Assembly: GCF_018305005.1 (NCBI RefSeq)
Contig: NZ_JAGQEG010000039.1
Span: forward strand, 1-47,957
Reading direction: 5' to 3'
DNA length: 47,957 nucleotides
DNA from: Collimonas silvisoli
Lineage (GTDB): Bacteria; Pseudomonadota; Gammaproteobacteria; Burkholderiales; Burkholderiaceae_D
The position numbers were made by a program, and so were the translations under genes. The notes under the pieces were generated by a model that was not told the origin of the DNA, made no database searches, and worked only from the letters and a program-made list of their open reading frames with translations. Positions 18,117 through 35,330 of the stretch are shown piece by piece (position 1 is the stretch's first letter; the number at the start of each line of letters is the position of its first letter).

Positions 18117-20210
18117 TCAGAAGCGCGCATTCAAGCCCAGCCACAAGCGGCGGCCTTCGTCCACCAGCCAATTGCCGTTGATGGTGGCACGCGGCCGGCG
18201 GTCGACATCGACCACCTTGTCGGTCAGATTCAGCAGCGCCGCGTTCAGCGTCAGCATTTTATTAATCGCATACGATCCGCCCAGATCGAAGGTAGTGGTT
18301 GCCGGACGAGTGCGCACGCCGGCGCCGCCGTTACGATATGCAGCCCAGAACTGTTCGCTGACATAGTTGGCTCTGGCAAACGCCGAGACGCCGTCGCGCG
18401 GCAGCCAGTCGAGTTTGAGATTGGCTGCGTGTTTCGGGGTTTTATCCAGCGGCTGCCCTTTCAAAGAACGGCCGTTGAACGCGGTTTCGCCATCGCTCTC
18501 GCGCTTCGAATCCGTATAGGTATAGTTGCCGGACAGTTTGAAGACATTCGACAGCGGCACCGTCAGCCCCATTTCGACGCCGCGGATATTTACCTTGGCG
18601 ATGTTGTTGTAGGTATATAGGGGAAGACCGGTCAAAGGATCTTTCCTGCCTGCAAAATCGCTGACGATCTTGTCCTTGAAATCGTTATTGAACACCGTCA
18701 CGCTGCCGCTCAAGCCTTCCGGCCCATCGTAGCGCAAGCCGATTTCCTGATTGACGCTGGTTTCGGCTTTCAGATCCGGATTGCCGTATAACACGCCTGG
18801 CATCGAAGTCGGGCCGCCGCTGGACATCACGTAATCGGCTGAACTCTGACGCAAGTTGGGAGCCCGGAAGGCTTTGGCGACGCCGCCGCGCACGGTCAGC
18901 GTCGGCGCCAATTGATAGACAGCATAGACCCGAGGGTTGAAGTGCTGGCCGTATTTGTCGTCATGGTCCAGGCGCAAACCGCCGGTCAACGATAATTTGC
19001 TGGTGACGAAGTATTCGTCTTCGGCGAACAGCGCCCACGACTTGCGCGTGATCGATCCCGGATTCACATAGTTCAGCGGGGTTCTGCCGATTCTGGCCGG
19101 GCTTTCCGCAGCGGTGCCGTCCAACTGATTATGCGTGTACTGGCCGCCCATCCTAAGAATGTTGCTGGTGAACGGCAAAGTCACTTGCGCATCGAGGATG
19201 GTGTTGGTGATTTTAGGGCTGGCGGCAGCGGCTTCAGGCCCAAGCGGGCCGTTGGTCTTGCCGTTGAATTCGCCGATTTCCTGGTACAGGGCAAGATCGG
19301 TGCTACCGAAATTCCAACGCCCGGTATGCGATGCAGCCCAATGGGTGCGGGTATTTTCAGAGATGGTCTGGCTATCGTCCAGCGCCAGCGATTTGCCCGG
19401 CGTATAGGTCCGTTTCAATTCTTCATGGCCGGCCTCCAGCGTAATGTCTTGATTGCTGGCCGGCTTGATGCCCAGTTTGGCGGTGATCGAGCGGGTGTCG
19501 GTCTGGCTGGTGCCATCCACCACTTTGTCCTCTTCGCGGGTGTTCAGATTGCCGTATACCTGCAAGCCGACTACCTCGTCCTTGATCGGCCCGGCCAGAT
19601 AGAAATCGCCCTGATATTCGTTACCCAGATTGGAGCGTTGCTGGGTAGTGGTGCTGGCGTTCAGCGCCCCGCCCCAGGTCTTGGGAACTTTGCGGGTAAT
19701 GATATTGATCACGCCGCCGATCGCGTCCGAGCCGTATAACGAAGACATCGGGCCGCGCACCACTTCGATCCGTTCGATCGCAGCCAGTGGCGGGATCAGG
19801 CTGGACTGGATGCCGCCGGTGCCGCGCGAGCTGGTTTCGCGGGTACCCTGGCGCTTGCCGTCGACCATGATCAAGGTATATTCGCCGGGCATGCCGCGGA
19901 TCGAAATATCCTTGGAATTATTATCGCCGCCGACAATGCTGACGCCTTCCAGGTGACTGACCGCGTCTTGCAGATTATTGAAAGGCTGTTTTTCCAGCTG
20001 CTCTCGGGTAATCACGCTGATGGTGGCAGGCGCGTCCTTGATTTGCTGTTCATAACCGCTGGCGGTGACCACCACCTCTTTCAAGGTGGTCTCGGCATAG
20101 GCAGAGCCGGCGCTGATGGTGCCAACAAATACGCCGCCGCACAAAGCCGGCAGTGCCCGTGCGCAACCTGGGACAAAACCCAGGGTAAGACTTTTCAATT
20201 TCAGATTCAT
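18117..20210 (-). CDS. TonB-dependent catecholate siderophore receptor (FepA/IrgA type)
   Basis: The product has 697 residues. ATG 20210 is preferred over the in-frame GTG six bases upstream because GGGAG lies at the right distance. It begins with a signal peptide ending near AGSAYA, followed by the TonB box region (ETTLKEVVVTAS). The plug domain has KDISIRGMPGEYTLIMVDGKR and VVRGPMSSLYGSDAIGGVINIITRK. A 22-strand barrel ends ...LWLGLNARF with the terminal Phe needed for outer-membrane assembly. Plug motifs fit the FepA/BfeA/IrgA/CirA catecholate receptors. Its own Fur box is at 20265-20283; it follows the synthesis and transport operon and should import that ferric siderophore. Confidence 0.92.
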   Translation of the reverse strand: MNLKLKSLTLGFVPGCARALPALCGGVFVGTISAGSAYAETTLKEVVVTASGYEQQIKDAPATISVITREQLEKQPFNNLQDAVSHLEGVSIVGGDNNSKDISIRGMPGEYTLIMVDGKRQGTRETSSRGTGGIQSSLIPPLAAIERIEVVRGPMSSLYGSDAIGGVINIITRKVPKTWGGALNASTTTQQRSNLGNEYQGDFYLAGPIKDEVVGLQVYGNLNTREEDKVVDGTSQTDTRSITAKLGIKPASNQDITLEAGHEELKRTYTPGKSLALDDSQTISENTRTHWAASHTGRWNFGSTDLALYQEIGEFNGKTNGPLGPEAAAASPKITNTILDAQVTLPFTSNILRMGGQYTHNQLDGTAAESPARIGRTPLNYVNPGSITRKSWALFAEDEYFVTSKLSLTGGLRLDHDDKYGQHFNPRVYAVYQLAPTLTVRGGVAKAFRAPNLRQSSADYVMSSGGPTSMPGVLYGNPDLKAETSVNQEIGLRYDGPEGLSGSVTVFNNDFKDKIVSDFAGRKDPLTGLPLYTYNNIAKVNIRGVEMGLTVPLSNVFKLSGNYTYTDSKRESDGETAFNGRSLKGQPLDKTPKHAANLKLDWLPRDGVSAFARANYVSEQFWAAYRNGGAGVRTRPATTTFDLGGSYAINKMLTLNAALLNLTDKVVDVDRRPRATINGNWLVDEGRRLWLGLNARF

Positions 20211-20264
20211 AGCCACAACTCCCTTATATTTTTAATGTGCGCTTCGATTGACAACGTCTTTATT

Positions 20265-20283
20265 GATAATGATTTTCATTATC
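20265..20283. promoter_or_regulatory. Fur box of the siderophore receptor gene
   Basis: GATAATGATTTTCATTATC matches the 19-bp Fur consensus at 17 positions and is a perfect palindrome with 8-base arms around TTT. It lies about 55 bases upstream of the receptor start, where it would block transcription when iron is plentiful. Confidence 0.88.
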
Positions 20284-20374: not shown

Positions 20375-21151
20375 TTAAGCGCCGAGCGTGGCGCCGCCAT
20401 CCACGCATAGTTCATGCATGGTGATATGCCGGGCGCGGTCCGAAGCCAGAAACACTACCGCCTCGGCGATGTCTTCAGCGTCGGCAATCCGGCCCAGCGG
20501 AATCCCCAGGCGATAGTGTTCCAGCGAGCCATTGATCACCGCCTGCTTATGCTCCGGGCTGGTCCACAATAGACGCTGCATGGCGGTATCGGTGGAGCCG
20601 GGTGAAACCACGTTGCAGCGTATGCCGTGCTCCGCCAGTTCCAGCCCCAGGCAGCGGGTGAAATGCGCCGATGCTGCCTTGGACGCCGCATAAGCAGCCA
20701 TCTGCTGGCGCGGCACCGCGGACGCATTGGAGGCGACCGTCACGATCACGCCGCGCTGACGCGGCGCCATGCGGCGCGCCACTGCACGGCAGAGCCGGAA
20801 CACGCCGCCGACATTGACTGCAAAAGTCTGCTCCCAGTCGGCGTCGCTGCAATCGAGCGCTGCGCCGAGGCGCAAGATGCCGGCGGCGTTGACCAGGATA
20901 TCGATCGGCCCCAATGCGAGCTCAACCCGTTCCACCGCCGCGTCCACCGCCGCGCTGTCGGCAACGTCGAGCGCGATGCCAAACGCGGCGTTGCCCGCGC
21001 CGTTCAATTCAGCAGCCAGCGCCGCCACCGCGTCAGCCTGAAGATCGAGTAAAGCCAGCTTCGCACCTTGTTGCGCCAATGCCCGTGCGACGGCGGCGCC
21101 GATACCTTGCGCCGCGCCGGTTACCAGTACTACCTTGTCTTGAAATTCCAT
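20375..21151 (-). CDS. entA: 2,3-dihydro-2,3-dihydroxybenzoate dehydrogenase
   Basis: The product has 258 residues. It oxidises 2,3-dihydro-2,3-dihydroxybenzoate to 2,3-dihydroxybenzoate (DHB) with NAD+, completing the DHB pathway that EntC and EntB begin. Short-chain dehydrogenase motifs: TGAAQGIGAAVA (about 11-22), NAAG (about 87-90), the Ser-Tyr-Lys set including YAASKAAS, and VSPGSTDT. Context selects EntA over other family members: it is the last gene of the ent/fep operon, 23 bases after fepC, with AAGGACGAC before its ATG. Confidence 0.92.
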   Translation of the reverse strand: MEFQDKVVLVTGAAQGIGAAVARALAQQGAKLALLDLQADAVAALAAELNGAGNAAFGIALDVADSAAVDAAVERVELALGPIDILVNAAGILRLGAALDCSDADWEQTFAVNVGGVFRLCRAVARRMAPRQRGVIVTVASNASAVPRQQMAAYAASKAASAHFTRCLGLELAEHGIRCNVVSPGSTDTAMQRLLWTSPEHKQAVINGSLEHYRLGIPLGRIADAEDIAEAVVFLASDRARHITMHELCVDGGATLGA

Positions 21152-21174: not shown

Positions 21175-22032
21175 TCAGAGTTCCAGCGCCAGCGCGCTGT
21201 CTGCATCGGCTTCATTGGCTTGATCCGCAATGCCTGGGCTAGCCACCGGCACCACCACCGGCGCGCCGTCGCCAGGCGCCGCCAGCACGTCCACATCCAC
21301 TTGATACAGTTGCTGCACCAACGCCGGGGTAACGATCTCGCGCGGCGCACCGGCCGCCAGCACCCGGCCGTTGCGCATCGCCACCAGCGTATCGGCGTAG
21401 CGGGCGGCGGCCATCAGGTCATGCAGCACCATCACCACGCTGCGTCCCGCTGCGGCCAGCATCCGTATACGGTTCAAGACATCGACCTGATGCCCCAGAT
21501 CGAGCATGCTGGTCGGTTCATCCAGCAGCAGCAGCGGCGTCTCCTGCGCCAGCACCATCGCCAACCAGCAGCGCTGGCGCTGGCCGCCGGATAGCTGATC
21601 GAGACGCCGCTCGGCCAGCGCCAGCACGTCAGTCGCCTGCAGCGCGTTGCGCACCGCCCGTTCATCCTCGGCCGACCATTGCTGCAACAGCCCTTGATGC
21701 GGATGGCGGCCGTAACGCACCAGGCCGCTGACGCTGATGCCTTCCGGCGCCTGCGGTGCTTGCGGCAGCAAGGCCAGACGACGCGCGGCCTGTTGCGGAC
21801 GCATCTGCCACAGATCTTCGCTACCCGACAGGACACTGCCCCGGGACGGCTTATGCAAGCGCGCCATGCAGCGCAACAGCGTCGATTTACCGCAGCCATT
21901 GGGGCCGACGATGACGGTTATTTTTCCTGGCGCGATGCTCAGGTTTATGCCGTGCAATACCTGTGTTTTTTGATGACAGGCGTGCAATCCCTGCACCACC
22001 AACATCTGATTTTTCTTAACTATTTCCTGCAT
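21175..22032 (-). CDS. fepC: Ferric siderophore ABC transporter ATP-binding protein
   Basis: The product has 285 residues. It powers import of ferric catecholate across the inner membrane with FepD and FepG. Walker A GPNGCGKSTLLR (about 42-53), signature LSGGQRQRCWLAMVLAQ (about 148-164), Walker B LLLLDEPTSMLDLGHQ and the H-loop MVLHDLMAA are all present. Its ATG shares one base with the fepG stop (TAATG), indicating translational coupling. The C-terminus carries an extra 25-30 residue Ala/Asp/Val-rich tail after VYQLYQVDVDVLAA. Confidence 0.93.
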   Translation of the reverse strand: MQEIVKKNQMLVVQGLHACHQKTQVLHGINLSIAPGKITVIVGPNGCGKSTLLRCMARLHKPSRGSVLSGSEDLWQMRPQQAARRLALLPQAPQAPEGISVSGLVRYGRHPHQGLLQQWSAEDERAVRNALQATDVLALAERRLDQLSGGQRQRCWLAMVLAQETPLLLLDEPTSMLDLGHQVDVLNRIRMLAAAGRSVVMVLHDLMAAARYADTLVAMRNGRVLAAGAPREIVTPALVQQLYQVDVDVLAAPGDGAPVVVPVASPGIADQANEADADSALALEL

Positions 22033-23117
22033 TAGCTATCCCCCCTGCGCTCGCTCAACAGCAGCCATAACAAGAACGGCCCGCCGAGCAAATTACAAAT
22101 CACGCCGACCGGTAATTCGGCCGCCGCCAGCAACACTCGTCCCAAGGTATCGGCGCCGACTACCAGTGTCGCCCCCACCAGCGCGGCGCCGAGCAAAGCG
22201 ATGCGGCCGCCGCCGACCAGCCGCTCGGCGACAAACGGCGCCGCCAGTGCAACGAACGCGATCGGGCCGCAGACGCCGACCGCCAGGCCGGCCAGCAATA
22301 CCGCAGTCAACAGCGCTTGCCACTGGGTGGCGCGGACCGGCAAACCGAGTCCGCTGGCAATCTCCAGATCGAAACGCAGCAAGGCCAGACGGCGCGTACT
22401 TAACAAGGTCAGCGGCAGCAACAACAGCAGGCCCAGCGCCAGCGGCAAGGCAGCGATGTAAGAACGGCCGTTAAGACTGCCGATACTCCAGGCATACAGC
22501 GAGCTGGCGTGCATCAGTTCCTGACGTGACAGCGCCAGCTCGGTCACTGCGCGCAACAAGCTCGACAAGGCCAGGCCGACAATCAACAGGCGCTGTCCGC
22601 GACGCCCCAGGTTGCCGGAGGCGATCAGCAATAAGACCACCGCGCCGAGAGCCCCTAGAGGGCCGACCCACCAAGGCCCGAACATGCCAGCAGCGCTGCT
22701 GATCAGCGCCACGAATACTCCCAGCGTGGCGCCATCGGCGACGCCCAGCAGATCCGGCGTCGCCAGGCGGTTGCGGGTCAAGGCTTGAATCAGGCAACCG
22801 GCCATACCCTGCGCCGTGCCGGCCAGCAAGCCGACCAGCACCCGCGGCAATCTGAACTCCAGCACCAGCAGTTGCATGCCCGGCGCGGCCTGCCCCTGCA
22901 GCACGGCCAGCAATTGGCGCGGCGACAGCCAGGTCGAGCCGGCCAGCAAGGCCATGCCGACCGCCGCGGCCAGCAGCATGCTCAAACCCACCGTCACCCA
23001 TAAGGAACGACGGGCGAACAACAAGGAAAGACGGCCGCAACGCAGCATGCGCATGTCGGCGTCGAGCACTGCAGCTTGAACGACCCGCGGTGCAATTTCC
23101 GGCAGCAAAGCGCTCAT
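22032..23117 (-). CDS. fepG: Ferric siderophore ABC transporter permease
   Basis: The product has 361 residues starting at ATG 23117, which overlaps the fepD stop as ATGA; the much longer upstream reading in this frame is the antisense-like shadow of fepD. It is a multi-helix inner-membrane permease of the FecCD family: LEFRLPRVLVGLLAGTAQGMAGCLIQALTRNRLATPDLLGV, then CGPIAFVALAAPFVAERLVG, and the closing GVICNLLGGPFLLWLLL. It pairs with FepD to form the ten-plus-ten-helix channel. Confidence 0.92.
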   Translation of the reverse strand: MSALLPEIAPRVVQAAVLDADMRMLRCGRLSLLFARRSLWVTVGLSMLLAAAVGMALLAGSTWLSPRQLLAVLQGQAAPGMQLLVLEFRLPRVLVGLLAGTAQGMAGCLIQALTRNRLATPDLLGVADGATLGVFVALISSAAGMFGPWWVGPLGALGAVVLLLIASGNLGRRGQRLLIVGLALSSLLRAVTELALSRQELMHASSLYAWSIGSLNGRSYIAALPLALGLLLLLPLTLLSTRRLALLRFDLEIASGLGLPVRATQWQALLTAVLLAGLAVGVCGPIAFVALAAPFVAERLVGGGRIALLGAALVGATLVVGADTLGRVLLAAAELPVGVICNLLGGPFLLWLLLSERRGDS

Positions 23118-24202
23118 AAGGCAGCACCGTTCTGCCACGCCCGCGAACGCGCCAGCCAGATCAGCAATGGCGCACCGGCCAAAGCGGTCATCACGCTGAT
23201 CGGCGTCTCGAATGGCTGCACCGCCAGCCGTGCAGCAAGATCGGCGGCCAGCAGCAGGCCGGCTCCCAGCCAGGCCGCGACCAGCAATTGCGCGGCCAGA
23301 CTGGCATGCCGCAATAACGGTGTCAAAGCGCGCGCCAAGAACGGCGCCAGCAAACCCAGGAAGCCGATCGGACCGGCCAGCGCCACCGCGCTCCCGGTCA
23401 GCAAAGTCACGCTGAAGGCCACGCCGAGCCGCAACGGCAACGGCCGATGGCCCAGCGAACGGGCGATATCGTCGCCCAGCAGCAATGCCGACAAGGGCCG
23501 CGCCAGCAACAGCGCAGACAACAAACCGGCGATGACGACGGGCGCGGTCCAGAGTGTCATGCTGGGTGTAATGCCAGCCAGGGAACCGAGCACCCAGAAA
23601 CGGTATTGATCGTAGCCGGCAGGTTGCGACAACAGGATGGCGGAACTGATGCCGATGAAAGTCGCGCCTAGCGCAACCCCGGCCAGCACCAGGCGCAGCG
23701 GTGCGACAGCCTGATGGCCAAACTGGGCAACCGCCAATACGCAAGCATTGCCTAGCATTGCCCCAAGCCCGGCCCATAACAGATAGCCAGGGCCGTTTTC
23801 CACCCCGGCCCAGGCGATGCCCACCACCACGCCCAGCGCCGCGCCGGCGTTCACGCCGAGCAGACCGGGTTCAGCCAGGGGATTGCGCGTCACGGTTTGC
23901 ATCAACATGCCAGCCACGCCCAAGGCGCTACCGACCAATAAAGCCGCCGCCATGCGTGGCAGGCGCAAGCTCAGCAAAACGGTCTGCAATTGCGGATCGC
24001 TGCGTGCTCTGGCCTCGCCTGATAAAAAAGCCAAGGCATCCATCGCGCTAAACTCACCGGCGCCGACCAGCAAGGACGCCAAAGCCAGCGCCGGCACCAC
24101 CAGCGCCAGCAAAATAAACAGCACCCGCCGTAGCGCCGGGCGATAAGCATGATCAAACACAAGAACTCCGGGAACGCGTTGCAAAAAACTGCTTGAATTC
24201 AT
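23114..24202 (-). CDS. fepD: Ferric siderophore ABC transporter permease
   Basis: The product has 362 residues of the FecCD/BtuC family. Core motifs: LSLRLPRMAAALLVGSALGVAGMLMQTVTRNPLAEPGLLGVNAGAALG, then GPIGFLGLLAPFLARAL, and PISVMTALAGAPLLIWL at the end. The start overlaps the fepB stop by four bases (ATGA). It sits between fepB and fepG, in the classic order of catecholate uptake genes. Confidence 0.92.
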   Translation of the reverse strand: MNSSSFLQRVPGVLVFDHAYRPALRRVLFILLALVVPALALASLLVGAGEFSAMDALAFLSGEARARSDPQLQTVLLSLRLPRMAAALLVGSALGVAGMLMQTVTRNPLAEPGLLGVNAGAALGVVVGIAWAGVENGPGYLLWAGLGAMLGNACVLAVAQFGHQAVAPLRLVLAGVALGATFIGISSAILLSQPAGYDQYRFWVLGSLAGITPSMTLWTAPVVIAGLLSALLLARPLSALLLGDDIARSLGHRPLPLRLGVAFSVTLLTGSAVALAGPIGFLGLLAPFLARALTPLLRHASLAAQLLVAAWLGAGLLLAADLAARLAVQPFETPISVMTALAGAPLLIWLARSRAWQNGAAL

Positions 24203-25128
24203 TCTTGCTTAAAACCCAGCATGGCCTTTTCCACATCCTGCAAAATCGCCAGTGCCGCCAACGGGCCGCCAGGGCTGGTCCACAACGATCCATCCACTGC
24301 CACCATGTGGCCCTTTTGCACCGCACCCAGTTGACGGAAGGCCGGACTCTGACGTGCTGCACTCAGCGCATCGTTAGCCTGACTGGTGTTGAGGGTGCCG
24401 ACAAACAACCAGTCGGCGTCGATACGCGACAGCGCTTCCAGGCTCAAGGGCGGCGAGTGCGCAACCCCGGCCTGCATTTGCGCCGCCGGCCGCCGCAATT
24501 TGAGATCGGCCAGCACCAGGCTGGCGAATGCGTCTTTCAACATGTATGAAGGCCCTTGCGGATTCCAGCGCACCACGCTCACGGTCGTATTGGCTTGCGC
24601 ACCCAATTTGCCGCGCAGCGCATCGGCGCGCTGCCGATAGGCCGTCAGCAAGGCGTCGGCTTGAGCTGGCCGCCCTACCACGTCGGCAATACGGCGCAGA
24701 GCCAGTTGCCAGTCTTCGCCTTGCTTATAGCTGACCACGGTGGGCGCGATCTTGCCCAATTGCGCCAGTAATTCAGGATCGGGCAAGCTGCCGACCAGGA
24801 TCAGATCCGGCTGCGCGCTGATCACCAGATCCAGTACCGGGCTGCCGAAATTACCGACGCTGGCAAGGCCGCTAACGGCGTTGCCAAGGTAATGCGGCAT
24901 GCCGCCCTGGCCGCGGCCGTTGGTGGCGCCGACCGGCTTGATCTTCAGCGCCAGCAGGGAATCCAGATCGATTTCGGACAAGGCCAGCACGCGTTGCGGT
25001 TGCACCGGCACTTGCACTGCCCTGCCCGCTGCATCGACAATGCTGCGCCCGGCGCTAAAGGCTGACATCGCGGAAAATGCCAGTAGCGCAAACAGCGCCG
25101 TGCGGATAAATGAAAGACGGTTATTCAT
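24199..25128 (-). CDS. fepB: Ferric siderophore periplasmic binding protein
   Basis: The product has 309 residues. The signal peptide is MNNRLSFIRTALFALLAFSAMSAFSAG, so the protein is periplasmic. The class III siderophore-binding fold is visible: VQPQRVLALSEIDLDSLLALKIKPVGATN, then VISAQPDLILVGSLPDPELLAQLGKIAPTVVSY and the later ADWLFVGTLN segment. It delivers the ferric catecholate to FepDG. The start overlaps the stop of the upstream siderophore-interacting protein gene by four bases. Confidence 0.92.
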   Translation of the reverse strand: MNNRLSFIRTALFALLAFSAMSAFSAGRSIVDAAGRAVQVPVQPQRVLALSEIDLDSLLALKIKPVGATNGRGQGGMPHYLGNAVSGLASVGNFGSPVLDLVISAQPDLILVGSLPDPELLAQLGKIAPTVVSYKQGEDWQLALRRIADVVGRPAQADALLTAYRQRADALRGKLGAQANTTVSVVRWNPQGPSYMLKDAFASLVLADLKLRRPAAQMQAGVAHSPPLSLEALSRIDADWLFVGTLNTSQANDALSAARQSPAFRQLGAVQKGHMVAVDGSLWTSPGGPLAALAILQDVEKAMLGFKQE

Positions 25129-26036
25129 ATCGAGGTTTCCTTGATGACGGTGGTAGTGGCAGGAACGGCGGTGCGGCGCTCTTGCTGAGCAACCTGGTCC
25201 AGCTCAAACGCATCCATGATTCGATGCCGTTCGGCGTGGTAATCCTCTTCGGTGTGCTCATCTTTCCAGTACGGCACGGCATACATGGCGCGCCGCGGCA
25301 CGCCGCGCTGCTTGAGCAGATACTCGCGCAGGGCCACCACTTGGGTGCTCTCGCCGGCCAGCGTCACCGACAGCCCGGAGGATGGCAGGTTCAGAGCAGA
25401 CACCTGCTGCAGTAACAGCGTGCTGCTGCCGGCCGGTGCGCCGTTGCGCGACAGCCAGTGCAGATCGATGCCAGGCGGATGACGCAAGGGCTGGATTTCG
25501 CTATTGTCCGGCACCTCTATCAAGGCATGGCCGCGGGCATGCTCGGGCAAGGCCGCGAGGACTGCCGCCAGCACCGCGAAAGCGCTGGGATCGCCCAGCA
25601 GAAGAAAATACGCGGCGTCCGGCAAAAAGCGCGGCGGACCACCCGGGCCAGCGACACCGATGGCGGCGCCAGGCTCGGCGTGCAAGGCCCAGCTTGAGGC
25701 CGGGCCATCGTCGCCGTGCAAGACGAAATCGATATCCAGTTCGCCGGCTGCCGCGTCGTAACGGCCAACCGTATAAGTGCGGGCAATCGGCCGGATGTCG
25801 TCCGGCGGCCAGATCGGACCGTCCGGGCCCAGCGTCGGCAGTACCGGTTCAATTTGACCTGGGCGCGGCAACAGCAATTTGATATGCGCGCCGTCGCTGG
25901 CCGGCGGAAAACCGGCCAGCGCCTCGCCGGCCAGCGTAATGCGCCGCATGTGCGGCGTCAGTTGTTGCGTGCGCCGCACACGCAACAGGCGTGGCGGCGT
26001 GCGAGGAGTAGATGTAGTTTCGGATGTTTTACTCAT
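25125..26036 (-). CDS. Siderophore-interacting protein (ViuB-type ferric reductase)
   Basis: The product has 303 residues; ATG 26036 is preferred, overlapping the NRPS gene stop by eight bases, and a TTG extension of eight codons is possible. SIP family flavoproteins reduce ferric siderophores in the cytoplasm and release iron. Motifs: the FAD-binding RxYT region is RTYTVGRYD (about 88-96), then ELDIDFVLHGDDGPASSWA, GPGG, a nucleotide-binding LLGDPSAFAVLAAVL, and the C-terminal YWKDEHTEEDYH of the family. In this operon it replaces a Fes-type esterase, implying release by reduction. Confidence 0.9.
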   Translation of the reverse strand: MSKTSETTSTPRTPPRLLRVRRTQQLTPHMRRITLAGEALAGFPPASDGAHIKLLLPRPGQIEPVLPTLGPDGPIWPPDDIRPIARTYTVGRYDAAAGELDIDFVLHGDDGPASSWALHAEPGAAIGVAGPGGPPRFLPDAAYFLLLGDPSAFAVLAAVLAALPEHARGHALIEVPDNSEIQPLRHPPGIDLHWLSRNGAPAGSSTLLLQQVSALNLPSSGLSVTLAGESTQVVALREYLLKQRGVPRRAMYAVPYWKDEHTEEDYHAERHRIMDAFELDQVAQQERRTAVPATTTVIKETSI

Positions 26037-29000
26037 GGTGTCTGCGCGTAATGGATTCAAGACTCAACCGCCTGGCCAACTCGCGGCCGATATGCGCCAA
26101 CGGCGCCGGCTTGCTCATGCCGATATGCGTGCTGTCGATATCGATGCGCTCCATGCGGCCTTGCACATAGGGCTTCCAGCCCAGCCAGTCGGGTGCTTCG
26201 GGGGTACGGCGGGAGGCATGGAAAAACAGCAGATCGCCGTGGTAAGGCTGATGCCGCAAATCGCGATACTGCAACATGCCGTGCAAGGCGCTCTTTACCA
26301 ATCGCGCCAGGTGCGCCTCATCGGAGCCGGCCAAGGTGCTGTCCGGCTGTTTGAAACGGGCCAGCATGGCTTCATGCGACAGCGCCTGGCCGTCGGCGTC
26401 CAGCGGCGAAGCGCCGATCACGTCGAGCAAGGTCAGCAGCGCATCGCGTTCTTGCGGTTCCGGTTGGCCTTGCCAGATATCGCTCGGATAGGCGTCCATC
26501 ATCGCCAGCAGGGCCACCGTTTCACCGGCCTGTTGCAGCTTGACCGCCATTGCATGGGCGATGCCGCCGCCGGACGACCAGCCAAGCAGGCGATACGGCC
26601 CGTGTGCCTGCACACTGCGCAGCAAGGCCAAGTAGGCATCCACCTGAGCTTCAACTCTGGTAGGGGCTTCGCCGCTGATGCCGATGGCTTGCAAACCGTA
26701 GATAGGGGTATCCGGCAGTTGCATGGTGAGACCCAGATAACACCAGGCCAAGCCTTCTGCCGGGTGCACGCAAAACAGCGCCGGCGACTGGCTGGCGCCG
26801 CGCTGGATCAGCAGCAGCGGTGCAAATTCGGAACCGGCGGCGGCTGGCGGCGGCGAATGGCCGGCCAGCGCGCTCAAGGACTGCGCCAGCGCCGCCACGG
26901 TGCGATGACGGAACAAGGCCGATACCGCGATCTCGCGCTGCAAGGCAATGCCGAGCCGGTTGGCGACCTGGATCACCTGCAAGGATTTGCCGCCGAGGGC
27001 AAAAAAATCGTCCGCCGGGCTTAAATCGCTCACCCCCAATACTTCGCGCCAGACCGCCATCACGGTTTGTTCCAGCTTGCTGGCGACGACATTGGATTGA
27101 TCTTCGGCAGTGATGGTCATCGGCGACAGCTCGCGCAGCGCCTTGCGGTCTATCTTGCCGTTGACGTTGCGCGGCAATTTCGGCAGCGCCGGATAACTGC
27201 CGGGAATCGCCGCCGCTGGCAAATGCCGGGCCAGGAAATCGCGCCAGATGGCCGCTGTCGGCAAGCTTTGGTCGCTGACAACGAACGCCACCAAACGTTT
27301 GCCGCCACTGGCGAGCGGCTGCGCCACCACCGCGACTTCGCGCACGCCCGGATACAACAGCATGGCCGCTTCGATTTCCAGCGGATCGATGCGATGGCCG
27401 CTGAGTTTGAACTCATCGTCCAGGCGTCCCAGATAGCGCAATTCGCCATCGCCGCCCAGCAGCGCGCGGTCGCCGGTGCGGTAGGCATTGCATGGCGCCG
27501 AGTGTCCTGGCAACCCATCCAGTTGCACAAAACGTTCTGCGGTCAACGCCGCTCGTCCCAGATAGCCAAGCGCCAAAGCGCCGCCCATCAGGCATAACTC
27601 GCCAGCCTCGCCGCACATCACCGGACGCATCTCAGCGTCGACCACGGCAATCTCGACGCCCGCCAGCGGCCGCCCGATCGGCACCGTATCGCCATCGAAA
27701 TCAATCGCCCCGGGTCCGGCCAGCTCTGCCGTAGTGCAAATCACCGTGGCTTCAGTCGGCCCATAGGTATTCAGCAATTGCACATGCGGCGCTACCGCTG
27801 CACGCCAGCGCGCCACTCGTTCGGCCAAGGCTGCCTCACCGCCGATGATGAGCAGCCGCACGTTGTCCGGCAGCGCGGCCTCGTGCTGGCTGATGCAAAA
27901 ACTGAGTTCGTGCCAGAAAGCGGTCGGCAAATCCATCACGCTGATGCGCAGCCGCTCGCATGCCTGCAAGAAACGCGGCAGCGATTCCAGCATCTCTTCG
28001 TTACGCAAAATCAAGCTCGCGCCGGCGCACAGTGTCAGGAAGATTTCTTCCACGCTGGCGTCGAAATGCAAAGGCGAGAATTGCAACACCCGGTCGCTGG
28101 CGCTAATGCGGTAGCACGCCGTTGCGCCGGCCACAAAATGCGCCAGCGCAGCGCGGCCGACCATGACGCCGTTCGGCCGGCCGGTGGAACCGGAGGTATA
28201 GATCACGTAAGCCAGGGAATCCGCCGCGACCGCAACCGGTTCAAGCAAAGGCGCGACACCCGGCAGATTGTGGCTAACGCTGTCATCCAGACAAAGCAGC
28301 GGCGCGACCCCGTTTACCTTATCGGCGTGCAGGTGCAAACTCAGCACCAGCGCCGGTTGTGCATCTTCCAGCACCGCTGCGATGCGCAGCAGTGGGCCGT
28401 CCGGATCGAGCGGCACATAACCGCCGCCGGCCCACAGCACCGCCAGCATGGCCACCACGGTATCCGGCGCACGCGGCAGCAACAGCAGCACGCGGCTTTC
28501 CGGCAGTACGCCGTGAGCAAGCAAGACGGCGGCCAGCGCCTGCACTTGCGCCAGCAGTTCGGCATACGTCAGGGAGACGCCGTCCTGCGCTAACGCGATC
28601 TGCCGCGGCGTGCTGGCGGCATGCTTGCGCAAAGCATCGAGTACCGCTTCTGGCGCGGCGGGCAGCGGGCCGCCGGATAACACGGCCGGCTGCGTGGAGA
28701 TCGTGGCGGCTGTGCCGAGTAACGAGCTCAATGGCGTGGCGGTGTGGTGCGGCGCGTTCGCCAAAACATCCAAGGTCGCCAGCAAACTTGCATGCAAGGC
28801 GCTCAATGTGGCGCTATCGTAAGCATCCGGATTGGCTTCAAAATCCAGCCGCACGCCGTCGGCGCCGGGGGCAATGACAATCGACAGATCCTCAACCGGA
28901 CCGGCCGCGATCGGATGCGCAGTCGCCGCCAGTTGGCCGAACGCCAGCGGCCGGTCGAACGGCATCAGGTTGATCACCGGCCCGAACAGTCGCCGCGTGC

Positions 29001-30030
29001 CATCGTTCAGGCCGAGATCGTGTTTGAGTTGTTCATAGCGATAACGCTGATGCGGCCGTATTGCGCGCAGTTCAGTCATTACCTGCTGCGCCAGATGGTT
29101 CAGGCCAGCCTGGCTGTCTACCTGCAACCGCAAGGGCACGATATTCATCGCCATGCATGGCACGCTTAGCGCTGCCGAACCGAGCCGTCCCATCACCGGC
29201 AAACCAAGCGTGATCTCGCTGGCGGCGCTTTTCTGTTGCAGCCAGGCGGCGATGGCGGCAATCAGCCACGCCGTCCAATCGACCCCGGCGGCACTAGCCG
29301 CGACGTGCCAGCGCTGCAAGGCAGCAGCCGACAAATTGCCGCGCTGGCGCCGCACGCCATGTGCCACCGGCATTGCCGGCCCCAGCAGCACAGGCGGTGG
29401 CGCGTCTTTCAGACGCGTACGCCAGAATTCCCGATCTCGTTCATAGGCAGCGGAAGAAAGATAGAGCTGATCTTCGGCAATTACCGGCGCCAATGCGCTC
29501 GGGCGCGCCGGCGGCAAGCCGCTGCCCGCGATGCGCGCCGAATACAGATCGGCCACCCGCTGCGCCAGCAAGGCGTAGCCGAAGCCATCCAGCGCCACGT
29601 GATGCACCCGCAAATACCACAGCATGCGCTCAGCGCCAAGCTGCAATAGCGCGCTGGCAAACAAAGGGCCGTGCGCCAGATCGGCGGTTTGCAGCAGGTC
29701 AGCCTGCATCCAACGCTGCGCTGCTTCGAATGGCGCCGCTGCAGCGCTGAAATCCAGCCGTTGCAAGCTCCAGCCAGAATCTGGCGCAGGCGTTTGCCAG
29801 ACATTTTTGCCGTCGCTGGCATAGCGTTGATGCAAAGCGTCGCACTCTGCTATCATCTGGCTCAACGCCGCCGCGAATGCTGCCTGATCCAGCACGCCGC
29901 GCAGCTCAACCGCTTCGGCGGTCCAGTAAGCCGGGCTGCCGGCGTCGAGTTGCTGCCCCAGCCAGATACCGTATTGTGCGGCCGACAGCGGTAATGGCTC
30001 CGCCAGCTCTTGCATCTGGGCGATTCCCAT
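26029..30030 (-). CDS. Non-ribosomal peptide synthetase, EntF-like (C-A-T-TE), predicted basic amino acid
   Basis: The product has 1,333 residues, EntF-sized. Domains: condensation about 10-430 with HHVALDG at 143-149; adenylation about 455-965 with YTSGSTGRPNG (611-621), YGPTE (756-760) and NGKIDRKAL; thiolation about 980-1050 with the phosphopantetheine Ser in GGKS (1016); thioesterase about 1070-1325 with GWSSG (Ser 1152). The pocket residues, aligned to the standard ten positions, are D657, A658, E661, D700, I728, G730, T755, V763, I764, K959. This differs from the EntF serine code (D-V-W-H...). Two acids at positions 239 and 278 favour Lys, Orn or Arg. It should condense DHB from EntB onto that residue and release an amide-linked catecholate. 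No MbtH-like gene is nearby. Confidence 0.93.
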   Translation of the reverse strand: MGIAQMQELAEPLPLSAAQYGIWLGQQLDAGSPAYWTAEAVELRGVLDQAAFAAALSQMIAECDALHQRYASDGKNVWQTPAPDSGWSLQRLDFSAAAAPFEAAQRWMQADLLQTADLAHGPLFASALLQLGAERMLWYLRVHHVALDGFGYALLAQRVADLYSARIAGSGLPPARPSALAPVIAEDQLYLSSAAYERDREFWRTRLKDAPPPVLLGPAMPVAHGVRRQRGNLSAAALQRWHVAASAAGVDWTAWLIAAIAAWLQQKSAASEITLGLPVMGRLGSAALSVPCMAMNIVPLRLQVDSQAGLNHLAQQVMTELRAIRPHQRYRYEQLKHDLGLNDGTRRLFGPVINLMPFDRPLAFGQLAATAHPIAAGPVEDLSIVIAPGADGVRLDFEANPDAYDSATLSALHASLLATLDVLANAPHHTATPLSSLLGTAATISTQPAVLSGGPLPAAPEAVLDALRKHAASTPRQIALAQDGVSLTYAELLAQVQALAAVLLAHGVLPESRVLLLLPRAPDTVVAMLAVLWAGGGYVPLDPDGPLLRIAAVLEDAQPALVLSLHLHADKVNGVAPLLCLDDSVSHNLPGVAPLLEPVAVAADSLAYVIYTSGSTGRPNGVMVGRAALAHFVAGATACYRISASDRVLQFSPLHFDASVEEIFLTLCAGASLILRNEEMLESLPRFLQACERLRISVMDLPTAFWHELSFCISQHEAALPDNVRLLIIGGEAALAERVARWRAAVAPHVQLLNTYGPTEATVICTTAELAGPGAIDFDGDTVPIGRPLAGVEIAVVDAEMRPVMCGEAGELCLMGGALALGYLGRAALTAERFVQLDGLPGHSAPCNAYRTGDRALLGGDGELRYLGRLDDEFKLSGHRIDPLEIEAAMLLYPGVREVAVVAQPLASGGKRLVAFVVSDQSLPTAAIWRDFLARHLPAAAIPGSYPALPKLPRNVNGKIDRKALRELSPMTITAEDQSNVVASKLEQTVMAVWREVLGVSDLSPADDFFALGGKSLQVIQVANRLGIALQREIAVSALFRHRTVAALAQSLSALAGHSPPPAAAGSEFAPLLLIQRGASQSPALFCVHPAEGLAWCYLGLTMQLPDTPIYGLQAIGISGEAPTRVEAQVDAYLALLRSVQAHGPYRLLGWSSGGGIAHAMAVKLQQAGETVALLAMMDAYPSDIWQGQPEPQERDALLTLLDVIGASPLDADGQALSHEAMLARFKQPDSTLAGSDEAHLARLVKSALHGMLQYRDLRHQPYHGDLLFFHASRRTPEAPDWLGWKPYVQGRMERIDIDSTHIGMSKPAPLAHIGRELARRLSLESITRRHHE

Positions 30031-30915
30031 TCAATGGCTCCGCGACGCAGCGAGCAAATTCCACCAGTCCGCCAGCGTCGGCCGCTCGGCCAGATCGACG
30101 AAAGTGGCGCTAGCGCCGCCACGCCGCCAACGCTCGACCAGGCTCATCAAACGGATCGAATCAAGGCCGACGTGCAGCAAGTTATCGTCGATCCGCAAAT
30201 CGGTAACCGGCATTTGCATCAATTGCGCCACCTCTGCTTGCAGTGCCGCCAGGCTGGCCGGCAGACTGACTGCGACAGCCGGTTGCAAGGCGCTGACGAC
30301 GTTATCCGTATGGGTGACCACGCCGCAGCGTTGCGACACATAGTCCAACGCCATCGCATGCTGTTCGGCGGAGAAATCGGCCAGGGCGTCGCCCACCAGA
30401 AGCGCTTGCACATCGTGCATGAAGGCGTCCGCACTGGTCATCAGGCAGCCGATGTGGGCGTAGACGCCGCATACAATCAATTGATCGCGGCCCTGCTGCT
30501 GCATGCGCTGCAACAGATCGCTGCGCACAAAAGCGCTGTAGCGCCATTTGGTCAGCACCGTGTCTTGCGCACGCGGCGCCAAGGCGGCAACCACTGGCGC
30601 CCGCCGCGGTCGCGCAGTCAGCCCCGGCCCCCACCATGCCTGCAGCAGGCCGCGCTGCTCGGGTGCTTGTTGCGCCGGCTGAGCGGTATACACCACCGGC
30701 ACGCCGGCAGCATCGCAAGCATCGCGCAGGCGTTTGATATGTTCGATCAAGGCGGGTATCGGCGCGGCCTGGACATCGTAGAAATCGAGAAAATACTCTT
30801 GCATATCGTGAATCAGCAACACCGCGCGCGCCGGGTCCGGAGCCCAGTCGACACGATTGGTCGGCATGGCGCTAACGGCGGGCATTGGATAAGAGGGAAT
30901 TTTTGGAATGCTCAT
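30031..30915 (-). CDS. entB: Isochorismatase / aryl carrier protein
   Basis: The product has 294 residues with two functions. The N-terminal isochorismatase converts isochorismate to 2,3-dihydro-2,3-dihydroxybenzoate; it shows LLIHDMQEYF (Asp 37), LTKWRYSAF (Lys 123) and GVYAHIGCLMTSADAF. The C-terminal aryl carrier domain (about 220-290) carries the phosphopantetheine site VGLDSIRL (Ser 253), loaded with DHB by EntE. Its stop is directly followed by the NRPS start (TGAATG). No 4'-phosphopantetheinyl transferase gene is in the window. The 37-base gap from entE is the only non-overlapping junction among the synthesis genes and has no clear ribosome binding site. Confidence 0.95.
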   Translation of the reverse strand: MSIPKIPSYPMPAVSAMPTNRVDWAPDPARAVLLIHDMQEYFLDFYDVQAAPIPALIEHIKRLRDACDAAGVPVVYTAQPAQQAPEQRGLLQAWWGPGLTARPRRAPVVAALAPRAQDTVLTKWRYSAFVRSDLLQRMQQQGRDQLIVCGVYAHIGCLMTSADAFMHDVQALLVGDALADFSAEQHAMALDYVSQRCGVVTHTDNVVSALQPAVAVSLPASLAALQAEVAQLMQMPVTDLRIDDNLLHVGLDSIRLMSLVERWRRGGASATFVDLAERPTLADWWNLLAASRSH

Positions 30916-30952: not shown

Positions 30953-32620
30953 TTAGAGGCTCTTCCCTGCACTGGCCAACTGCTCCGCGATGCGTTCGCG
31001 CAGCACACGTTTATTGACCTTGCCGACGCCGGTTTTCGGGAAACGATCGATGAACTCGATCCGGTCCGGGATCTTGTATTGGGCAATGCCGCGCTCACGC
31101 AGGAAATTGTTCAGCTCCAGCGCTCTTGGCACTACGCCACGCGGAATCACAAAGGCGCAGCTGCGCTCGCCCAGATAGGCGTCCGGCATGGAAACCAGCG
31201 CCACGTCATGGACATTCGGGTGCGCCAGCAAATGGTTTTCGACTTCATCGGCAGCCACTTTGTCGCCGCCGCGATTGATCTGATCCTTGGCCCGGCCCTC
31301 GACCACCAGATGGCCGGACGGCAGCTGCGACACCAGATCGCCGGTGCGGTAAAAACCATCGGCGGTGAAGGCGCGGGCGTTGTGTTCTTCGGCCTTGTAA
31401 TAACCGCGTATGGTGTACGGCCCGCGCGTCAGCAAGTGGCCGACCTCGCCGGGAGTCACATCGCGATCTTCGTCATCCACCACGCGCACCTCATCGGCGG
31501 CGGAAATAGCGCGGCCCTGGGTGCCGACAATTAGTTGCTCCGGATCGTCGTGACGGGTGTAGTTGACCAATCCCTCGGCCATGCCGAATACCTGTTGCAG
31601 GGAGCAACCCAGCACCGGACCCACCCGCTGCGCTACCTCGGCGGTGAATTTGGCACCGCCTACCTGCAGCAATTGCAGGCTGCTCAAATCGTGGCCGCCG
31701 CCGGCACGCTCATTGACACGATTATTGACAGCGTCCAGCCAGACCATCGCCAGCGGCGGCACCAGTGCCGTCAGGGTGACGCGCTCGGCCTCGATCAGCG
31801 GGAAAGCATCGTCCGGGCTAGCGCGCCGCGCCATCACCACACAACCGCCGGCATATAGTACGCCGAAGCTGCCGGGCGAACTCAGCGTGAAATTATGCGC
31901 CACCGGCAATGCGCACAAGTAGATGCTGTCCGCTGTCAGGCCGCAGATTTCCGCGCTGGCGCGGATGCTGTACAGGTAGTCGTCAGGAGTGCGTGGAATC
32001 AACTTGGGCAAACCGGTGCTGCCGCCCGAGAGCTGCAGGAAGGCGACGTCGTCCGGACGCGCTTCAGCGAAGGTTTGCGGTTGATCGTACAAACTATCGA
32101 GTGCGCAAAATTCCTCTGCTTGTCCGACCACGATGATGTGCTGCAGACCAGGCTGCTCGGCACGGACCTGGCGCGCCAGCTGGCGATAATCGAAACCGCC
32201 GTCCTGGTCGGCAATCACATAGGCCGTGGCCTCGGCATGGGCGCAGAAATAACTGATTTCGGCACGCCGGTGCGGCGGCAGCGCGAACACCGGTATCGCA
32301 CCCAGGCGGAATAATGCGAAACACACGGCGAAAAATTCGGCGATGTTGGGCAACTGCACCACCACCCTGTCGCGCGGGCGTATGCCGATTCGGGCAAAAC
32401 CTGCGGCCAGTTGATCGCTGCGCTGATCCAGCTCGGCATAAGTCCAGCGCCGCACACCGCATACCAGCGCCAGCCGTGCCGGATATTGCTGCGCCCGCGC
32501 CCGCAGTATGGCGCCGAAAGTCTCGCCAGTCCAGTAACCGGCGGCGCGGTAATGCGCGGCGGCTTGCTGCGGCCAAGGTGTAAATCCGGGCAAATATTCA
32601 GGTAGATCAGCGTTGCTCAT
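30953..32620 (-). CDS. entE: 2,3-dihydroxybenzoate-AMP ligase
   Basis: The product has 555 residues; the start at 32620 ([17 protein letters not shown]) overlaps the entC stop by four bases and matches the family N-terminus, so the 61-residue upstream extension is rejected. It activates DHB with ATP and loads it onto EntB. Motifs: [17 protein letters not shown] (A3 core), [13 protein letters not shown] in the aryl pocket, FYRTGDLV, and [14 protein letters not shown]. The C-terminus ends [17 protein letters not shown] with the catalytic Lys region. Confidence 0.95.
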
Positions 32621-33861
32621 TGCCCTGCCTCGACTTGATCTTCCAACATCAGCTCCAGATTCATCGCCGCCAGCATGGTGCGCAGCTTGCCCGAGGTTTC
32701 CAGCAATTCCAGCTGCGGTTCGGAACCGGCAACGATGCCGGCGCCGGCATACAGCGTTGCACTGTGGGCGCCGACTTCGGCGCAGCGCAGAGTTACCGCC
32801 CACTCGCCGTCGCCGTGGTTATCGCACCAGCCGACCAGGCCGGCGAAATAGCGGCGGTCGAAACCTTCCGTATCGGCGATGAATCTGCGCGCGGCAGCGG
32901 TCGGATGGCCGCATACTGCCGGCGTCGGGTGCAACGCCAGCGCCACTTCCAGCGAGGTGGTGGTGAGATCGGCCAGTTCGCCGCGGATTTCCGTGCCCAG
33001 ATGCCACATGGTCGGCGTCGCCAGCAGACTGGGGGCGCTCGGAACCCGCAAGGTTTTACAGTAGGGGCGCAAGGCGGCGGCAACCGCATCAACTACCAGT
33101 GCGTGCTCATGCAAATCCTTGACGGAGCGCAGCAAAGCGTCTGCGCGACGGCGGTCTTCCGCCGCATCGGCGCTGCGCGGAATCGATCCCGCCAGCGGAT
33201 GGGAAACCAGTTCCTTGCCGTAGCGCGCCAGCAGCAGCTCGGGGCTGGCGCCAATCAAGGTACGTCGCTCGGACTGCGCAGCGGCGCGCTCGGCGGCCAG
33301 ATCGATGGCGAAGGTATAGCCGTGTAAATTACGCGCCGCCAGGCGATGCAGCAAGGCCGGAACTTCGATCTGCGCATCCAGGGTGAGCGAGCGCGAGAGT
33401 ACCGTTTTTTCGAACTCGCCATTGCGAATCTGCGCCAGCGCGCTACGCACATTGCTGCGATATGCCTCCGGCGCAGGTTGCATCAATGGCGCTGCCGACA
33501 AGTTCTCCCCGGCCGGTTTTGCGGCAGGACTCAGAGCCGCTACTGCGCTATCCATGCCCGTGCCGCTGATCAGTTTTTGCGGCATGAACAGGTGAGCCGG
33601 CGCCGAACCCGCGTCCATGCGAAATGGCAGCGCGCCCATCAACACTGGCGCCGGCTGCCCTTCCAGTTCTGCATTCTTAAGATATTGCGCCGCCATGACG
33701 GCCAGCTGATTAGGGTCACATGGCGGCAATACGGCTTTGATTCCATAGGCTAGCAGGCTACGCCTGGGTGAGGAGAAAAAGGTGGCGCCTGTTTGATATT
33801 GCTGCAGCAAATCTGTAGCGCTGACTTGCTTCAGAAATGCATGGTGGAGTCTGTCGTTCAC
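32617..33861 (-). CDS. entC: Isochorismate synthase
   Basis: The product has 414 residues from GTG 33861, preceded by GAGGACC. It converts chorismate to isochorismate, the entry step to DHB. Family signatures run in order: [15 protein letters not shown] (about 150), [28 protein letters not shown] (about 205-235), [49 protein letters not shown] and [20 protein letters not shown]. First gene of the ent/fep operon, reading from the Fur-box region. Confidence 0.95.
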
Positions 33862-34053: not shown

Positions 34054-34190
34054 TTGATTTATTGATGAAATGGAATTAATATCCAATCCAGCCATGAATT
34101 TCTCGCCGCTCTCGCCTCACCAAACGCCCGCATTCAAGGGCGCTATTGACCAAACCCCAATCTACCTACCGAACCCCTCCGAGCGCTCCC

Positions 34191-35330
34191 ATGAAAAGAG
34201 ATCAACTTGTCGTCGACGAAGAAAATTTTCTAAACCTTGCCGGCATCGATCCCATGCCCTCGCCTGCCGAACTGAGGGCGCAGTTGCCGCTCAGCGCGGT
34301 TGCCGCAGAAACAGTAGCCAGCGCCCGCCGTGTAGTCAGGAATATTCTGGAACGGCGCGATCCGCGCTTGCTGGTGGTGGTCGGTCCCTGCTCGATCCAC
34401 GATCCCGAGGCCGGCCTGGAATATGCGCGCCGCCTGCAGCAACTGGCCGCCGAACTGGCCGATACGCTCTACATCGTGATGCGCGTGTATTTCGAAAAAC
34501 CACGCACCAGCGTCGGCTGGAAAGGTTTGATCAACGATCCCGGCATGGATCAGTCGTTCCGCATCGAGGACGGCATGCACCTGGCGCGCCGCTTCCTGCT
34601 GCAAGTCAACCAGCTCGGCTTGCCGGCCGCGGCCGAAGCGCTTGATCCGGTCTCGCCGCATTACCTGGGCGAGCTGATCAGCTGGGTCGCGATCGGCGCC
34701 CGCACCACGGAATCGCAAACCCATCGCGAGATGTCGTCCGGCTTGCCGATGCCGGTCGGTTTCAAGAACGGTACCGATGGCAGTGTCGAAACGGCGGTGA
34801 ACGCCATCTTGTCGACCTCGCGTCCGCATGCCTTCCTCGGCATCGACAGCGATGGCCGCGCCGCCATCATCCGCACCCGCGGCAATCCGCACAGCCACCT
34901 GGTATTGCGCGGCGGCAGCGCCCGCCCCAACTACGATAGCGTCAGCGTCAACCTGGCCGAGCAAGCGCTGGCCAAGGCGCAGCTGGCTCCCAACATCGTC
35001 ATCGATTGCGCACACGGCAACTCTTACAAAAATCACGCACTGCAAGCAGCCGTGATGAGCGACCTGGTGCATCAGATATGCCAAGGCAATCGCAGCATCC
35101 TCGGCAGCATGATTGAAAGCTTCCTGGAACCCGGCAATCAGCCGATACCTGGCGATCTGTCGCAGCTGCGCTACGGCTGCTCGGTGACAGACCCATGCGT
35201 CGACTGGGAGAGCACCGCCGCCATGTTGCGGGCAGCGGCGGATGCCTTGCGCCACGTACTGCCCGGCCGAATTCCCGGCGCACACCTGACTGCGAACGCA
35301 GATACCTCATGTACCCTAAGAAAGCAATGA
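34191..35330 (+). CDS. aroG: 3-deoxy-7-phosphoheptulonate (DAHP) synthase, class I
   Basis: The product has 379 residues from ATG 34191; a TTG 45 bases upstream with AAGGG before it is an alternative. It joins phosphoenolpyruvate and erythrose 4-phosphate, the first step to chorismate. Motifs: VVVGPCSIHDPEAG (about 64-77), YFEKPRTSVGWKGLINDP (about 102-119), SWVAIGARTTESQTHRE (about 161-177), GFKNGTDG and IDCAHGNSYKN. Divergent from the ent operon across a Fur box, it is probably an iron-regulated copy dedicated to siderophore precursor supply. It ends with an unusual extension past the normal family end (HLTANADTSCTLRKQ) that overlaps the next gene. Confidence 0.92.
   Translation: MKRDQLVVDEENFLNLAGIDPMPSPAELRAQLPLSAVAAETVASARRVVRNILERRDPRLLVVVGPCSIHDPEAGLEYARRLQQLAAELADTLYIVMRVYFEKPRTSVGWKGLINDPGMDQSFRIEDGMHLARRFLLQVNQLGLPAAAEALDPVSPHYLGELISWVAIGARTTESQTHREMSSGLPMPVGFKNGTDGSVETAVNAILSTSRPHAFLGIDSDGRAAIIRTRGNPHSHLVLRGGSARPNYDSVSVNLAEQALAKAQLAPNIVIDCAHGNSYKNHALQAAVMSDLVHQICQGNRSILGSMIESFLEPGNQPIPGDLSQLRYGCSVTDPCVDWESTAAMLRAAADALRHVLPGRIPGAHLTANADTSCTLRKQ

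Follow-up and report, generated by a model that had tools for sequence, protein, structure and literature searches.

The gene cluster analyzed here most likely specifies an azotochelin-type catechol siderophore, with two catechols on one lysine, and not enterobactin. It lies in a 47,957-nucleotide stretch of Collimonas silvisoli DNA (henceforth the window) and includes an NRPS that, judging from its sequence, is probably a bis-DHB-lysine synthetase; the rival product cepaciachelin shares this core, and the estimates for the two readings overlap. Taken separately, the parts of the prediction differ in firmness: lysine is very likely the amino acid loaded, acylation of both its amino groups is likely, and azotochelin (calculated [M+H]+ 419.145) is favored, with less assurance, as the main product. 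For the other candidate compounds the calculated [M+H]+ values are 489.234 (cepaciachelin), 625.250 (protochelin), 283.129 (DHB-Lys), 405.129 (bis-DHB-Orn) and 670.151 (enterobactin). The synthetase family is already known, and both pocket and predicted product type are as in known relatives. Features of the locus are collected in Table 1; published work is cited for the accessible part of each text.

Table 1. Features of the predicted azotochelin-type locus, in window coordinates
Feature	Position	Strand	Remarks
TonB-dependent receptor	18117..20216	-	29% to E. coli FepA
Fur-box-like 19-mer, upstream of receptor gene	20265..20283	.	17/19 to consensus
EntA-like 2,3-dihydro-DHB dehydrogenase	20375..21151	-	49% to E. 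coli EntA
FepC-like ATPase	21175..22032	-	46% to E. coli FepC
FepG-like permease (FecCD)	22032..23117	-	
FepD-like permease (FecCD)	23114..24202	-	
FepB-like periplasmic binding protein	24199..25128	-	32% over 141 aa to FepB
Siderophore-interacting protein (SIP), FAD/SIP ferric reductase type	25125..26036	-	
Single-module NRPS C-A-T-TE, predicted bis-DHB-lysine synthetase	26029..30030	-	ORF, ATG start, 1333 aa
Thioesterase domain (TE)	26041..26781	-	Pfam Thioesterase 1084-1217; motif GWSSGG; C-terminal end placed by inspection
Carrier domain (T)	26881..27069	-	Pfam PP-binding, residues 988-1050; motif LGGKS
Adenylation domain (A)	27154..28629	-	Residues 468-959; code DAEDIGTVIK
Condensation domain (C)	28738..29994	-	Pfam Condensation, residues 13-431; motif HHVALDG at residue 143
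EntB-like isochorismatase with aryl carrier domain	30031..30915	-	48% to E. coli EntB
EntE-like 2,3-DHB-AMP ligase	30953..32620	-	47% to E. coli EntE
EntC-like isochorismate synthase	32617..33861	-	38% to E. coli EntC
DAHP synthase, divergent from entC	34146..35330	+	
MFS exporter	35309..36520	+	Homologue likewise divergent from biosynthetic genes in A. vinelandii locus L037

The domain order of the NRPS bears out a preliminary description of this DNA, which had read the enzyme as one module followed by a thioesterase: every Pfam domain match exceeds its curated cut-off, the A domain being made up of AMP-binding (468-824) and AMP-binding_C (885-959). Neither a second module nor an epimerase domain was detected by Pfam in the 1333-aa protein, and the terminal NADPH-dependent reductase characteristic of MxcG is likewise absent, with the TE in its place. 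The ten pocket residues named in the same description were all found where it had placed them, D657, A658 and E661 in core motif FDASVEEIF, D700 in ISVMDLPTAFW, I728 and G730 in LLIIGGEA, T755, V763 and I764 in LLNTYGPTEATVI, and K959 in NGKIDR. The core motifs are in register with a solved A domain, the first module of LgrA; alignment with the second LgrA module leaves a one-residue uncertainty at position '278'. That the pocket does not carry the serine code was also correct, as serine controls passed through the same mapping read differently: E. coli EntF yielded DVWSFSLVDK, which is of Ser type apart from a one-column slip at '278' (where the literature code has H), and a module of the other NRPS in the same genome gave the serine-type DVWHISLVDK.

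The acidic pair emphasized in the preliminary description, an E in position '239' with a D in position '278', is no chance feature, for it recurs in 82 of 83 aligned rows (the window, 79 relative loci and three loci from a scan of Collimonas genomes). The sole exception is a partial relative with 35% identity (L112), whose code is unlike all others. The remaining codes comprise DAEDIGTVVK (32 rows), DAEDIGTVIK (21, including the window), DAEDIGSIIK and DAEDIGTIIK (10 each), DAEDIGSVIK (5), a cut-off DAEDIGTVV- (2), and DAEDVGTVVK and DTEDIGTVVK (one each). In this known family a DAEDIGTVIK-type pocket is the norm, and hence less surprising than the preliminary description had taken it to be.

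Relatives of the NRPS were collected by scanning named genomes, which gave 93 matches; 80 were kept, corresponding to 79 distinct loci. The terminal domain is a TE in 43 of these and a reductase in 33; the remaining three have neither as far as they could be read. The closest named relative is the enzyme of Collimonas humicola RLT1W51 (78% identity), followed by those of Massilia (62-64%) and the catecholate NRPS of Azotobacter vinelandii CA (58%); the last shares the C-A-T-TE order and all ten code residues with the window enzyme. Identity to EntF amounts to 32-34%. By their record titles, 22 of the 33 reductase-ended relatives are myxobacterial, and these match the published description of MxcG, a C-A-T enzyme that joins DHB to each of the two amines of L-lysine (PMC8400222, accessible text). 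The window code agrees with that of the myxobacterial reductase-ended enzymes at nine of ten positions, as it does with those of 10 Burkholderia rows, and at eight or nine with the cepaciachelin-chromobactin synthetases of Burkholderia, Chromobacterium and Methylophilaceae. One Skermanella stibiiresistens locus (L050) is the only TE-ended one with DAEDIGTVVK, a code otherwise of reductase-ended enzymes.

Since the code is the same or one residue off in relatives with lysine products, lysine is strongly favored over ornithine, arginine and serine. By homology this strongly supports the earlier proposal of a non-enterobactin DHB-Lys product: the A. vinelandii NRPS has the very same code, and the MxcG-type and Burkholderia cepaciachelin-type enzymes differ from it at a single residue. 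The ornithine or arginine equivalents proposed alongside it find no such backing: acidic pocket residues suit basic amino acids in general, but the code equals, or departs at one or two positions from, those of groups tied to lysine products, and the named relatives whose products can be traced in papers are all lysine-based. We have set these equivalents aside as very improbable. The comparison with myxochelin holds for the core and fails for the mode of release, as MxcG-type relatives end in a reductase and the window enzyme in a TE; for that reason myxochelin itself was also set aside. One module with a TE would further permit a mono-acylated DHB-lysine, or an oligomer of it, as main product; the preliminary description had listed the mono-acylated form. 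We consider either improbable, given that MxcG acylates both amines (PMC8400222, accessible text) and that the window NRPS has neither second module nor epimerase.

The genes around the NRPS had been taken for the enterobactin set, which is accurate in part. Homologues of entF and of fepA, fepB, fepC, fepD and fepG are present, as are the linked DHB genes entA, entB, entC and entE. However, tblastn searches of the window with E. coli fes, entH and ybdZ came back empty (entD was outside the query set), the MFS exporter is weakly EntS-like (32% over 124 aa), and there is a gene for a SIP-type ferric reductase. The SIP gene, together with the lack of a fes match in the window, fits a product held by amides only. 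EntF yields a cyclic triester. It shares the C-A-T-TE order with the window enzyme and differs from it in its Ser pocket and in having fes and ybdZ nearby. The entABCE- and fep-like genes notwithstanding, an enterobactin synthetase appears exceedingly unlikely, in view of the pocket, the low identity to EntF and the lack of fes, ybdZ and entH matches in the window, and this reading was set aside. Within the host genome, an MbtH gene occurs only beside the other NRPS, no IucA/IucC (NIS siderophore) was found, and the phosphopantetheinyl transferase family gave three matches, all on other contigs. As to regulation, the best Fur-like sites in 20 Markov-sampled sequences reached 15 matches (0.05 per window), as compared to the 17 of the site upstream of the receptor gene; a second site, between entC and the DAHP synthase gene, matches at 13 of 19 positions and is weak, 1.15 such sites being expected per window.

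In the azotochelin pathway that we envision, EntC, EntB and EntA would convert chorismate to 2,3-DHB, with the DAHP synthase of the cluster feeding the chorismate pathway, and EntE would load DHB onto the aryl carrier of EntB. The A domain of the NRPS would place L-lysine on the enzyme's own carrier, and the single C domain, acting twice, would attach DHB to both lysine amino groups; hydrolysis of the thioester by the TE would then release azotochelin, that is, bis-DHB-lysine. The MFS protein presumably exports it. The ferric complex would return through the TonB-dependent receptor and the FepBDGC-like ABC importer, the SIP reductase would free the iron, and Fur may place the locus under iron control.

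Comparison with other loci bears on this scheme. In C. humicola RLT1W51 the whole cluster and its flanks occur in the same order, with genes 78-89% identical, and neither this locus nor those of Massilia showed any difference in kind from the window. A. vinelandii produces aminochelin, azotochelin and protochelin, and its MFS exporter CsbX is encoded in a catechol operon (PMC10669500, accessible text). The A. vinelandii locus L037 shares with the window the order MFS< EntC> EntE> EntB> NRPS> EntA>. The two differ in that the former continues after entA with an esterase and a stand-alone C domain, which the window matched only with the C domain of its NRPS, whereas the SIP, fepBDGC-like and DAHP synthase genes of the window were not seen in 24 kb of L037. 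The pair of esterase followed by stand-alone C domain (L037:14691-17248) also occurs in Uliginosibacterium (L038:2475-4673); in both, the NRPS of the same locus has the other C type, and the stand-alone domain adjoins the esterase as in Methylobacillus-type clusters. A further A. vinelandii C-domain place identified by Pfam (L135) gave no BLAST match to the C-domain queries, and locus L136 holds other NRPS genes.

Release of the same lysine core by the TE onto putrescine would yield cepaciachelin instead of azotochelin. Clusters for this compound have a similar gene set and a one-module C-A-T-TE synthetase: a [Cstarter-A-Te] NRPS with the Lys code goes with cepaciachelin in B. ambifaria (PMC4906002), the same kind of NRPS makes it in Methylophilus and in Chromobacterium violaceum, whose chromobactin is cepaciachelin (PMC13251462), and Burkholderia clusters except those of B. 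ambifaria and B. pseudomultivorans carry a DAHP synthase, as the window does (PMC5681537), all according to the accessible text. The window enzyme, however, is less similar to these synthetases (44-46% identity to Burkholderia, 49-53% to Chromobacterium) than to that of A. vinelandii, and its domains fall outside their clade. In a C-domain tree of 58 rows, sequences from Chromobacterium, Burkholderia, Methylobacillus and others form one 26-row clade (SH-aLRT 100), which also contains the two stand-alone C domains, one from the locus of A. vinelandii and one from that of Uliginosibacterium. Outside this clade, the window C domain groups with Collimonas (99) and, less surely, with Massilia and Herbaspirillum (89); it is likewise apart from the cepaciachelin clade in the A (57 rows) and TE (46 rows) trees. 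AU tests, on groups picked post hoc, rejected three arrangements: the Collimonas rows as part of the cepaciachelin C clade (p 2.3e-53), the stand-alone C domains grouped with the C domains of the NRPSs encoded beside them (p 5.9e-5), and a group of the 24 cepaciachelin-type NRPS C domains from which the stand-alone ones are excluded (p 6.5e-4).

These trees come from quick searches and have long branches and many unsettled deep forks; in the C tree, the order in which the reductase-ended enzymes, A. vinelandii and the window branch is weakly supported and establishes no joint clade of the last two. Six of the 83 rows, partial or divergent ones, were removed, 21 of 31 additional reductase-ended rows were omitted for size, and the cepaciachelin type is represented by other Burkholderia and Chromobacterium species and a Methylobacillus, not by the published producer strains. 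No single residue passed the filter for cleanly separating the two C-domain types. The 241-contig draft genome of the host yielded three C domains, that of the window and two in the other NRPS, none of which is nearest to the cepaciachelin type. It is on the three trees and on this last result that azotochelin is favored and that cepaciachelin seems a rather unlikely, if serious, contender. The Methylophilus producer of cepaciachelin releases azotochelin too (PMC13251462, accessible text), and a cepaciachelin-type enzyme may accordingly yield either.

The other NRPS of the host, on another contig (L004, G000:C122, 1752-9329, minus strand), is arranged C-A-T-C-A-T-reductase; its codes are the Ser-like one cited above and DAMLVGAICK. 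It adjoins an MbtH gene and, by eye, a glycosyltransferase-looking gene. Of the C-domain types compared, that of the reductase-ended, myxochelin-type enzymes comes closest to its first C domain (about 40%) and the cepaciachelin type is farthest from it; by this resemblance the enzyme may draw on the DHB pool as well.

Within the genus, the NRPS is present in four of 15 genomes, namely the host's own and three others (G202, G205, G209) at 76-79% identity. The cluster occupies the interval between the PBP1A gene and comEC (G000:C174 16964-36524 in the host), which spans about 20-24 kb in the four carriers, measured in G205 to the nearer, partial comEC copy, and 0.7-2.7 kb in the other 11. That second, partial copy stands at the cluster border (G205:C11:1712954-1714609). 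The host comEC is 81-83% identical, over a full-length match, to those of six cluster-free species, as against 75-76% to those of the other three carriers; in two further cluster-free species it is more distant (72 and 74%). Loss and old within-genus exchange both fit this patchy distribution. Strong matches to the ornithine-monooxygenase family PF13434 occur in six of the 11 cluster-free genomes (340-400 bits in five; in G201 two overlapping pieces score about 190 each), whereas the four carriers have none. Among these carriers is G205, of the same genus as the host; in the trees its C, A and TE domains coincide with those of C. humicola, which assigns the host to the genus of C. humicola. 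In the host genome, two PF13434 matches score 43.4 and 41.9 bits, and no true ornithine N-monooxygenase was found. The catecholate and hydroxamate markers, in four and six of 15 related genomes, thus do not overlap, which has a chance probability of 0.092 and is not significant.

In the accessible parts of the literature, malleobactin is described from Collimonas (PMC12542777; PMC11320959) and ornibactin-like clusters from six strains (PMC4690342). Iron chelation in the CAS assay is reported for C. humicola and C. silvisoli, with no structure named (PMC11288634); the CAS-positive C. humicola carries the whole cluster, and the assay does not tell a catecholate from other siderophores. A study of 23 endophytes with a color test for catechol-type siderophores included one C. 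pratensis strain, whose siderophore level was negligible overall (PMC6862297). Among the matches listed for Collimonas siderophores, catechols and C. humicola in a collection with few subscription journals, titles and opening lines of abstracts named no catecholate product of the genus.

To our knowledge, the step that uses putrescine in protochelin and cepaciachelin formation has no assigned enzyme. It is tempting to speculate, with due reserve, that the C domain decides whether a DHB-lysine synthetase also uses putrescine and that the window, with no C domain besides its azotochelin-type one, holds a natural azotochelin-only system, replacing hydroxamates in part of Collimonas. As part of this same tentative reading, A. 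vinelandii would look as if an azotochelin cluster had acquired a cepaciachelin synthetase trimmed down to the C domain, giving rise to aminochelin and protochelin. If the idea about the C domain is true, the putrescine step would be assigned to one domain that can be deleted and tested. The prediction itself provides a concrete, testable product for Collimonas, a genus described, in the texts accessible to us, with malleobactin or ornibactin-like siderophores.
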